A DNA stretch of 53,535 bases. Source: Bacteroidales bacterium. Its GTDB lineage: Bacteria > Bacteroidota > Bacteroidia > Bacteroidales > UBA932. Made by a program: the position numbers and the translations under genes. The stretch is taken from the NCBI GenBank assembly GCA_017471025.1, contig JAFUWX010000072.1, positions 1 to 53,535 on the forward strand, read 5' to 3'. The notes under the pieces were generated by a model. That model made no database searches. It saw only the letters and a list, made by a program, of their open reading frames with translations, and had not been told where the DNA came from. Shown here in pieces: positions 44,503 to 46,887 of this stretch (position 1 is its first letter; every line of letters starts with the position of its first letter).

Positions 44503-45246
44503 ATGGCAAACTTTTTTACCTCCTCAATCGGCCGCAAGTTCATCCAGAGCATCAGCGGTGCATTCCTGATTGTATTCCTGATTCTCCACATGACCATCAA
44601 CTTCTTCTCGGTCATCGATTCGATAAAGGGAACCTTCGGCGCTCCGGACGGACTTTTCCAGAAAGGCTGCGACTTCATGTCCCTGCCTATCGTGACGATT
44701 ATGGTTCCTGTGCTTGCGCTCGGTTTTCTGATCCACATCATCTACGGTATCTACCTGACCGTCGTGAACCTGAAGGCCCGTGGAGGCATCAAACGCTATG
44801 AGTCCGGCAGCAAAGGCAAGGCGGATTCCTGGAGTGCCCGCAACATGGTGGTTCTCGGTCTCGTCATCCTCGGCGTGCTGATTTTCCACCTCACCCACTT
44901 CTGGGCCAAGATGCAGCTGCAGGAGTTCATCGGCGAAGAAGCCTGGAATCCTTATCTGCTGATTCTCAAGACCTTCCAGAGCCCCGTCATTCTCTGTGTC
45001 TATCTGCTCTGGTTCGTAGCCATCTGGCTCCACCTCAACCACGGCTTCTGGTCCATGTTCCAGAGCATCGGCTGGAACAACCAGGTCTGGCTGAAGCGGC
45101 TCAAGGTCATCGGCATCGTGGTCTCTTCCCTGATCTGCCTGGGCTTCGCCTGCGTCGCGATCAACGGATACATCGAGGCCCATTGCACGACGGCTTCCGC
45201 CCAGTACATACAGCCTCTTTTGGAACAAATTGCGGCCATGAAGTAA
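44503..45246 (+). CDS. frdC: Succinate dehydrogenase/fumarate reductase cytochrome b subunit (orphan)
   Basis: A 247-residue protein with five membrane helices, matching the b558-type anchor of Bacteroidota succinate:quinone oxidoreductase/fumarate reductase. Conserved histidines that bind heme are visible in LILHMTINFF, FLIHIIYGIYL, FHLTHFWAK and LHLNHGFWSMFQS. It passes electrons between quinone and the FrdA/FrdB subunits in the inner membrane. Those two genes normally follow directly but are absent here: the next elements are a weak terminator and the trp leader. The frame is intact and the GC content ordinary, so it is not obviously decayed. Confidence 0.92.
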   Translation: MANFFTSSIGRKFIQSISGAFLIVFLILHMTINFFSVIDSIKGTFGAPDGLFQKGCDFMSLPIVTIMVPVLALGFLIHIIYGIYLTVVNLKARGGIKRYESGSKGKADSWSARNMVVLGLVILGVLIFHLTHFWAKMQLQEFIGEEAWNPYLLILKTFQSPVILCVYLLWFVAIWLHLNHGFWSMFQSIGWNNQVWLKRLKVIGIVVSSLICLGFACVAINGYIEAHCTTASAQYIQPLLEQIAAMK

Positions 45247-45273
45247 AAAAACGAGGCAAGCCCTTGTTTTTTT
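45245..45273 (+). terminator. Possible terminator after frdC
   Basis: An A-run with ACGAGG is followed after CAAG by CCCTTGTTTTTTT, giving an A/T-rich hairpin with a small GC core and a T-run, directly at the frdC stop. Confidence 0.45.
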
Positions 45274-45294
45274 CGAGAGAGTTTCCCAACTTTG
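45264..45294 (+). promoter_or_regulatory. Promoter of the trp leader-trpB2 unit
   Basis: CAACTTTG at 45287-45294 is one base from TAnnTTTG, and TTG at 45264-45266 lies 20 bases upstream, the usual -33/-7 spacing. The leader peptide ATG follows after 8 bases. Confidence 0.5.
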
Positions 45295-45302
45295 CTTCTG
45301 CA

Positions 45303-45362
45303 ATGAAAACGATGTACGCAAATAACTTCTGGTGGTGGTGCACTTATAGTTCCAAGCTGTAA
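45303..45362 (+). CDS. trpL: Trp-rich leader peptide of the trpB2 attenuator
   Basis: A 19-codon open frame encodes MKTMYANNFWWWCTYSSKL, with three consecutive Trp codons (TGG TGG TGG) at residues 10-12. It starts 8 bases after a promoter-like element and ends 38 bases before an intrinsic terminator. The only full-length gene downstream is a tryptophan synthase beta chain. This is the arrangement of the enteric trp leader: when charged Trp-tRNA is scarce, ribosomes stall at the Trp codons and the terminator is avoided. Confidence 0.88.
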   Translation: MKTMYANNFWWWCTYSSKL

Positions 45363-45368
45363 GGCATC

Positions 45369-45405
45369 TCCTCCGTTGTATTTGCTCATACAAGATATCG
45401 GGTGA
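45369..45405 (+). promoter_or_regulatory. Candidate antiterminator of the trpB2 attenuator
   Basis: TTGTAT (45376-45381) pairs with ATACAA (45388-45393). Outside it TCCTCCG (45369-45375) can pair with CGGGTGA (45399-45405) with one mismatch. The outer arm takes five bases of the terminator's 5' arm, so the structures compete. Less clean than in the pheA leader. Confidence 0.45.
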
Positions 45406-45434
45406 TTCGCTTACAGCGCGAATCACCTTTTTTT
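45401..45434 (+). terminator. Attenuator terminator of trpB2
   Basis: GGTGATTCGC (45401-45410), loop TTACAGC, GCGAATCACC (45418-45427), then seven T residues. A perfect 10-bp stem. It lies between the leader peptide and trpB2, 29 bases before the trpB2 start. Confidence 0.9.
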
Positions 45435-45463: not shown

Positions 45464-46828
45464 ATGAGACAGAAAAAATTCATGCTCCCCGAGAGCGAAA
45501 TTCCTCAGGCATGGTTCAACATGCAGGCCGTAATGCCCAACAAGCCGCTGCCTATCCTCAATCCGGCCACCCGCGAGCCTCTGTCCGCGCAGGACCTCTA
45601 CCCTATCTTCTGCGAGGAGTGCGCCAACCAGGAACTCAATGTGACGGACGAATGGATCCCCATCCCCGAGGAGGTCCGCGAAGCCTATGCTGCCTACCGC
45701 TGTACCCCGCTGGTACGCGCCTACGACCTGGAAAAAGCCCTCGGCACCCCGGCGCACATCTACTTCAAGAATGAGAGTGTCTCCCCCGCCGGCTCACACA
45801 AGCTGAACTCCGCCCTGGCCCAGGCTTATTATGCCAAGAAACAGGGCATCACCAACATCACCACCGAGACCGGCGCCGGCCAGTGGGGCGGTGCACTGTC
45901 CTACGCCTGCAAGAAATTCGGCATCGACTGCGCCGTCTATATGGTGAAGATCTCCTACAACCAGAAGCCTTACCGCCGTTCCATCATGAACACCTTCGGA
46001 GCGACCATCACCCCGTCTCCGTCCATGTCCACCCGCGCAGGCAAGGACATCATCACGGCGAATCCGAACGACAACGGCTCCCTGGGCAGCGCCATTTCCG
46101 AGGCCATCGAGCTGGCCGTATCCACCCCGAACTGCAAGTACGCCCTCGGCTCCGTGCTGAACCATGTGTGCCTGCACCAGACCATCATCGGCCTGGAAGC
46201 GGAGAAGCAGATGGCCCTCGCCGGAGAATATCCGGACATCGTCATCGGCTGCTTCGGCGGCGGATCGAACTTCAGCGGCATCGCCTATCCCTTCATGCGC
46301 CACAACATCCAGGAGGGCAAAAAGACACGTTTCATCGCGGCCGAGCCCGCTTCCTGCCCGAAACTGACCCGCGGCGTGTTCGAATATGACTTCGGCGACG
46401 AGGCCGGCATGACCCCGCTCCTGCCGATGTACACCCTGGGCCATACCTTCAAGCCGGCCAGCATCCATGCGGGCGGTCTGCGCTACCATGGCGCCGGCGT
46501 CATCCTCTCCCAGCTGATGAAAGACGGGCTCATGGAGGCGGTCGATATCGAACAGACCGAGTCTTTCAAGGCCGGTGTGCTGTTCGCCCGGAGCGAAGGC
46601 ATCATCCCCGCCCCGGAGAGCTGCCACGCCATCGCGGCCACGGTGCGCGAAGCCCTCAAGTGCAAGGAGACCGGTGAGGAGAAGATTATCCTGTTCAACC
46701 TTTCCGGCCACGGCTTCGTGGATATGAGCGCCTACGACCAGTACTTCGGCGGCAGCCTGGTGGACTTCCACATTTCCGACGAAGAGCTCGCCAAATATCG
46801 CGAGAGCGCGGATGTCCTGAACAAGTAG
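45464..46828 (+). CDS. trpB: Tryptophan synthase beta chain, TrpB2 type
   Basis: A 454-residue PLP enzyme joining indole and serine to tryptophan. It is of the longer TrpB2 group: PLP lysine in SPAGSHKLNSALAQ (TrpB1 has GAHK), ETGAGQWGGALSYACKKFG, phosphate loop CFGGGSNFSGIAYPF, and GLRYHGAGVILSQL. There is no trpA or other trp gene next to it. TrpB2 proteins often work alone on free indole. The Trp-codon leader and terminator upstream tie its expression to tryptophan supply, which argues that it really serves tryptophan synthesis here. Confidence 0.95.
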   Translation: MRQKKFMLPESEIPQAWFNMQAVMPNKPLPILNPATREPLSAQDLYPIFCEECANQELNVTDEWIPIPEEVREAYAAYRCTPLVRAYDLEKALGTPAHIYFKNESVSPAGSHKLNSALAQAYYAKKQGITNITTETGAGQWGGALSYACKKFGIDCAVYMVKISYNQKPYRRSIMNTFGATITPSPSMSTRAGKDIITANPNDNGSLGSAISEAIELAVSTPNCKYALGSVLNHVCLHQTIIGLEAEKQMALAGEYPDIVIGCFGGGSNFSGIAYPFMRHNIQEGKKTRFIAAEPASCPKLTRGVFEYDFGDEAGMTPLLPMYTLGHTFKPASIHAGGLRYHGAGVILSQLMKDGLMEAVDIEQTESFKAGVLFARSEGIIPAPESCHAIAATVREALKCKETGEEKIILFNLSGHGFVDMSAYDQYFGGSLVDFHISDEELAKYRESADVLNK

Positions 46829-46853: not shown

Positions 46854-46887
46854 AACAGCCGAATCTTGGGATTTGGCTGTTTTTTTT
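46854..46887 (+). terminator. Intrinsic terminator after trpB2
   Basis: AACAGCCGAATC, loop TTGG, GATTTGGCTGTT, then a run of T. The stem is about 12 bp with one G-T pair. It lies 26 bases after the trpB2 stop. Confidence 0.8.

Follow-up and report, generated by a model that had tools for sequence, protein, structure and literature searches.

A very likely tryptophan attenuator upstream of a solitary trpB2 gene in a Bacteroidales bacterium

Transcription of the E. coli trp operon is controlled at the trpL leader, in which tandem Trp codons are combined with 1:2, 2:3, and 3:4 RNA pairings. The role of stand-alone TrpB2, the type 2 beta chain of tryptophan synthase, is unsettled. One article still speculates on this role (PMC11917138); it cites a high affinity of TrpB2 for indole and, with reference to Busch 2014, the use of O-phosphoserine. 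For Thermococcus kodakarensis, both the synthesis of tryptophan and the salvage of indole have been linked to TrpB2 (Hiyama 2014, as cited in the excerpt of PMC11085991). On the regulatory side, the accessible text of Weinberg et al. 2010 (PMC2864571) lists Bacteroid-trp as a cis-regulator in Bacteroidetes, and that of Seliverstov et al. 2005 (PMC1262725) describes candidate Trp attenuators of actinobacterial trp genes, one of them before the trpB2A operon of C. diphtheriae. Within the open-licence literature, the excerpts available describe no attenuator for a solitary TIGR01415 trpB2 of Bacteroidetes.

We analyzed 53,535 nucleotides of DNA from a rumen-type Bacteroidales bacterium (contig JAFUWX010000072.1 of assembly GCA_017471025.1), the whole of which is referred to here as the window. 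A preliminary description had noted a 19-codon frame with three consecutive Trp codons and a perfect 10-bp terminator stem with seven T residues before trpB2, and both were found exactly as described (Table 1). The frame holds a second in-frame ATG at 45312. The terminator arms are GGTGATTCGC (45401-45410) and GCGAATCACC (45418-45427), with the loop TTACAGC and the T run at 45428-45434; the terminator scan detects the same signal with 11 pairs, including an outer G-T. An antiterminator was found in addition to the elements first noted: segment 2 is the exact complement of segment 3. A tandem-Trp leader frame, an intrinsic terminator, and a competing antiterminator pairing are thus all present in the window. 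A second probable terminator follows trpB2, so that the gene looks monocistronic; this signal was recognized by eye and is absent from the terminator scan list. On the other side of the leader, no sdhA or sdhB lies directly 3' of sdhC. The window's genome holds one full-length FAD_binding_2 match (179.6 bits, 420-aa frame), the rest being fragments, so the partner subunits of sdhC may have been lost, or the assembly may lack them.

Table 1. Features of the sdhC-trpB2 region, in window coordinates
Feature	Position	Strand	Remarks
sdhC	44503..45246	+	Ends just 5' of the leader region
Putative promoter	45263..45294	+	CTTG at 45263-45266 and -7-like box CAACTTTG at 45287-45294, 8 nt 5' of the leader ATG
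Leader peptide frame (MKTMYANNFWWWCTYSSKL)	45303..45362	+	19 codons; ATG at 45303-45305, stop codon TAA at 45360-45362
Three consecutive Trp codons (TGG TGG TGG)	45330..45338	+	Presumed stall site
Segment 1 (CTTATAG)	45343..45349	+	From folding; would pair with segment 2 if the ribosome is not over it
Segment 2 (GCTGTAAG)	45356..45363	+	Predicted antiterminator strand; spans the leader stop codon
Intrinsic terminator	45401..45434	+	Perfect 10-bp stem and T7
Segment 3 (CTTACAGC)	45410..45417	+	Terminator loop and last base of the 5' arm; predicted partner of segment 2
trpB2	45464..46828	+	TrpB-like PLP enzyme, tryptophan synthase beta chain 2 type; NCBIfam profiles
Probable terminator 3' of trpB2 (AACAGCCGAATC/GATTTGGCTGTT, T run)	46854..46887	+	By eye

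From this arrangement we infer ribosome stalling, a response in expression, and the reaction of the enzyme. The leader would attenuate transcription of the monocistronic trpB2 by way of the translating ribosome, with charged tRNA-Trp as the signal sensed. With tryptophan present, the ribosome would read through all three Trp codons, reach the stop codon, and cover segment 2, and the 3:4 terminator would form. With tryptophan scarce, the ribosome would stall at the Trp codons, leaving segment 2 to pair with segment 3 once the latter emerges; the 2:3 pairing would pre-empt the terminator, and trpB2 would be transcribed. The TrpB2 produced would then make tryptophan, most likely from the indole of neighbours and serine or phosphoserine. 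Ribosome-mediated Trp attenuation of the solitary trpB2 is very likely, and indole salvage by its product, which we derive from the regulation and the gene content, is likely. Taken as a whole, the explanation of a Trp attenuator on a monocistronic trpB2, whose enzyme most likely salvages indole, appears highly probable to us.

The recurrence of the leader was assessed at 163 distinct trpB2 loci, drawn from a sample of 149 genomes of the window's family and from the best 80 named contigs, mostly titled rumen or gut Bacteroidales; since these were the best 80 among the matches listed, the named-contig set leans towards close relatives. Three loci with a short upstream region and 11 duplicates had been left out beforehand; the N terminus is missing in L118. 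To be scored as a leader, a frame had to begin with ATG, contain Trp-Trp within no more than 40 codons, and have a terminator after it; the controls were 1180 upstreams of other open reading frames of at least 120 codons, found in these loci or in the window, along with 489 dinucleotide shuffles. Frame and terminator occurred together in 97 of the 163 trpB2 upstreams, compared to 2/1180 control upstreams and 1/489 shuffles, which bears out the earlier remark that such a Trp run is unlikely to arise by chance. When the terminator was not required, the counts were 105/163 and 25/1180. Conservation of the Trp run upstream of trpB2 orthologues had been named as one point on which the attenuator would stand or fall, and the result did not refute it: a Trp-rich leader is kept in 55 of the 59 loci with TrpB2 at least 83% identical, the window counted, and at 61 of the 86 trpB2 loci of the family sample. 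The sequences and their comparison show the parts of the switch, that these are conserved, that the alternative pairings covary, and that the leaders are placed before tryptophan synthase beta genes. Six loci (L075, L080, L085, L120, L121, and L122) have no Trp run; their leaders instead hold dispersed Trp and several Phe codons (FFFWRAWFWQ or similar), and a terminator is present before trpB2 in each. Trp-Trp-Trp leaders (MIPYNIYTNTCWWWRSFLDKE) with a terminator were also seen at L049 (137-259) and L050 (138-259), where the contig ends before a gene.

Of all parts of the locus, the promoter is the least secure. We take TAnnTTTG to be the consensus of the Bacteroidetes-type -7 box, and it is on this basis that positions 45287-45294 were named. 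Among the 97 ATG-started leaders, a box ending in TTTG lies within 60 nt 5' of the ATG in 83 and at a spacing of 7 to 8 nt in 37; the full TAnnTTTG was found in 50/97, compared to 107 of 1292 60-nt blocks from the same upstreams. At the promoter-like element of the preliminary description, a -7-like box is present with one mismatch to the consensus, and a sigma-70 scan found no promoter at the leader. The promoter is weakly recognizable, and its activity is putative. The -7-like box 7 to 8 nt before the ATG in 37 of the leaders suggests that the leader peptide may be translated from a nearly leaderless mRNA.

The alternative pairings were analyzed in 41 aligned sequences, the window included, from 51 listed leaders; the remaining 10 belonged to another subtype or were cut at a contig end. 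TGGTGG is invariant in the alignment, whose members were themselves selected for having it. The terminator has 90.8% of its cells paired, with two-sided changes in all 11 of its pairs and in 103 cells, compared to 31.4 in shuffles. In the antiterminator, 93.4% of cells are paired (slid controls reach at most 37.6%), and 23 cells have two-sided changes, compared to 5.0 in shuffles; these changes fall in 5 of its 10 pairs, a number that is not unusual against shuffles (mean of 3.4; reached in 80/500). Hairpin 1:2 is paired in 80.7% of cells, and its covariation is weak (0.208, compared to 0.197 in shuffles). The duplex sequence varies among clades while complementarity is kept, and swapping gives a poorer duplex than a leader's own in 27 of the 31 segment-2 clusters (Wilcoxon P = 2.9e-7). 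When two-codon Trp runs are counted as codons 2 and 3 of three, 86 of 101 leaders have the centre of their best leader-terminator duplex 25 to 35 nt beyond the point where the Trp run begins. A ribosome halted on these codons would reach to just short of this position. Leader conservation, together with an antiterminator pairing that is kept through sequence change, supports the tryptophan-attenuator reading that had been proposed.

In the window, the two alternative states differ little in energy (-21.0 and -22.7 kcal/mol). When the RNA extends no further than segment 3, it folds best as 2:3, and this holds until the 3' arm of the terminator is made. Hairpin 1:2 would need to form earlier, since RNA 45340-45417 folds best as 2:3 even without a ribosome. 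Exclusion of the terminator is also predicted to be less strict than in many relatives, because the 2:3 pairing in the window uses the loop and one stem base.

A covariance model built from the 41 aligned leaders was run over 121 genomes of the same genus; some training sequences share assemblies with the searched genomes, so that its recall is not independent. At an E value of at most 1e-4, it gave 45 matches, of which 36 are directly upstream of trpB2, 8 directly upstream of trpB1, whose sites were absent from the training set, and 1 elsewhere. The last, in genome G212, shows by eye a terminator and no Trp-Trp frame, and it was treated as a false hit. Matches without a beta gene numbered 6/58 at an E value of 0.01 and 17/75 at 0.1. 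The single match in the window's own genome is the window leader. In the genus, 17 of 19 trpB1 genes bear a leader, 13 by a model match at an E value of at most 0.1 and 4 more by a Trp-Trp frame.

The gene behind the leader encodes a TrpB2 by profile: it passes the cut-offs of NF009057 (694.9 bits; cut-off, 366) and TIGR01415 (597.4 bits; cut-off, 518.85) and falls under that of TIGR00263 for TrpB1 (158.4 bits; cut-off, 392.45). Its best PDB matches are 6hul_B, named beta chain 1, and 4qys_B and 6hte_B, named beta chain 2, all far above other TrpB chains. The GSHK and ETGAGQWG motifs align, and their lysine and glutamate, to which we presume catalytic roles, are kept. No match to trpA, IGPS, trpE, or trpB1 was found in the window's genome, which is 80.7% complete, and salvage of outside indole is likely for this reason. 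No tryptophanase-like gene was found in the same 80.7%-complete genome either, so other cells would have to supply the indole. Across the family, tryptophanase-like genes occur in 121 of 149 genomes at an E value of 0.001, none of them over the TIGR02617 cut-off, and the two that were checked are tryptophanases by NF053783.

It is conceivable that the attenuator is real but that TrpB2 mainly uses another substrate or indole from an internal source, such as a TrpA encoded on missing contigs. The incompleteness of the window's genome leaves room for such a source, and the available text of PMC11917138 cites TrpB2 enzymes as O-phosphoserine dependent (Busch 2014). In addition, 16 trpB2 loci of the family sample lie in genomes where one or more of trpA, IGPS, and trpE was detected, and 7 of these loci have the leader. 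However, trpB2 is far more widespread over the cut-offs (85 of 149 family genomes) than trpA (25), IGPS (24), or the TrpE N-terminal family (26), with at least one of the last three in 29/149, and, within the genus sample, genomes with trpB1 less often have the leader on trpB2. We consider this alternative unlikely, although it is the one that survives best.

The association between the leader and the pathway is stronger in the genus than in the family, where it is moderate. In the family, the leader is present at 54 of 70 trpB2 loci in genomes without trpA, IGPS, and trpE, compared to the 7/16 loci above (Fisher P = 0.0135, kinship uncorrected). In the genus, it is present in 59 of 83 genomes without trpB1, compared to 3 of 16 with trpB1 (Fisher P = 1.3e-4, kinship uncorrected), where three Trp-Trp frames within sdhC or otherwise unlikely were counted as no leader and 3 of the 19 genomes with trpB1 had no trpB2 match. 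The genus result is carried by the group whose TrpB2 is at least 80% identical (44/48, compared to 1/6; P = 2.2e-4); the difference was not significant in the other two genus groups (7/26 and 0/6; 8/9 and 2/4). Throughout, trpB1 was assigned from weaker matches to TIGR01415 (about 120 to 185 bits, family) or to TrpB2 (about 30 to 34% identity, genus). Among the 30 family genomes with trpB1, 4 lack trpA, IGPS, and trpE by detection, and all 4 have a Trp-Trp leader before trpB1. At these loci (L034, L035, L039, and L036, in genomes G049, G011, G031, and G092, respectively), the duplex lies at the usual distance; a solitary trpB1 under a Trp-Trp leader would parallel the solitary trpB2.

A metabolite- or tRNA-binding riboswitch (T-box-like), with no translated leader, would also account for a structured RNA, and the leader is indeed structured by folding (z score of -5.62). 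However, an Rfam search of the window returned no match at the gathering threshold, the conserved part is the frame with its Trp codons, and the antiterminator keeps its nearly fixed distance from these, whereas the distance from the start of the Trp run to the end of the leader stop codon ranges between 18 and 66 nt; we regard a riboswitch as very improbable. Least probable of all, and largely refuted, is the reading in which the terminator is that of sdhC, the Trp frame has arisen by chance, and there is no tryptophan control: sdhC does end just upstream of the leader, and 9 of the 34 loci (of 163) with sdhC upstream of trpB2 are without a leader, but the enrichment over control upstreams and shuffles rejects it, the Trp run is conserved in relatives, the antiterminator covaries, the duplex is fixed relative to the Trp codons, and leaders are present at 90 trpB2 loci with no sdhC in the upstream of up to 1400 nt examined.

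The Trp attenuator is common but not universal, and it has been gained or lost within the genus, given these 9 sdhC loci, the 25 of 86 family trpB2 loci without a Trp-rich leader by scan, which include same-genus loci likewise located after sdhC, and the closest relative, L124. In L124 (TrpB2 93% identical; same DNA as G235:C5), a terminator follows sdhC and there is no Trp leader. L124 and L224, of genome G235, point to recent loss or gain of the leader at the same site after sdhC. The VWWSQP frame of L124 was rejected as a spurious Trp-Trp frame; it is counted in the tallies of duplex position (101 leaders) and stop distance and excluded from the 97/163, 55/59, and sdhC tallies.

A Trp-sensing switch on solitary trpB2 in many genomes would constitute regulatory evidence for a role of TrpB2 in tryptophan supply, and it predicts that these uncultured rumen Bacteroidales take up indole that other organisms release. 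In most sampled genomes of this rumen and gut Bacteroidales family, no de novo tryptophan genes were detected. Across the family, the attenuator may follow whichever beta chain limits tryptophan, sitting on solitary trpB2 or trpB1 in genomes capable of indole salvage only and usually off trpB2 where a leader-bearing trpB1 exists; to this generalization we give an even chance. If true, these bacteria would meet their tryptophan demand by regulated cross-feeding on indole.

Among known systems, the TrpB2 of T. kodakarensis converts indole to tryptophan, as proposed here, but it is archaeal and found beside a TrpB1, and the cited excerpt mentions no attenuator. The C. diphtheriae operon likewise has a candidate Trp attenuator, but the gene called trpB2 there adjoins trpA, unlike the solitary gene of the window. 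The proteobacterial Trp leader (RF00513, E. coli trpL), which has no match in the window at the gathering score, shares tandem Trp codons and the 1:2, 2:3, and 3:4 pairings, but it controls a whole operon rather than one solitary gene. The closest system is Bacteroid-trp (RF01692), the best Rfam match of the leader (45283-45399); since its 24.3 bits fall below the gathering score of 49, the leader is not filed as a member. The two have in common Trp codons in a short frame, a stem around them, and a strand complementary to the terminator; the window leader differs in its subthreshold score, its solitary trpB2 target, its predicted near-leaderless start, and its diverged terminator. In the family, RF01692 gave 35 matches (E value of up to 1) in 33 of 149 genomes, only 2 genomes being above the gathering score, and the weak matches precede both trpB1 and trpB2. 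Before trpB1, all 15 matches examined have a Trp-Trp leader and a terminator, with the duplex at the same distance in 14; four other weak matches (L051, L058, L059, and L061) lack a frame holding two Trp codons and were set aside. The Rfam cut-off would thus miss many likely kin, and by architecture and gene class the window leader appears to be close kin of Bacteroid-trp. The attenuation switch itself is classic; it is the target gene, a solitary trpB2, that makes the case of interest.
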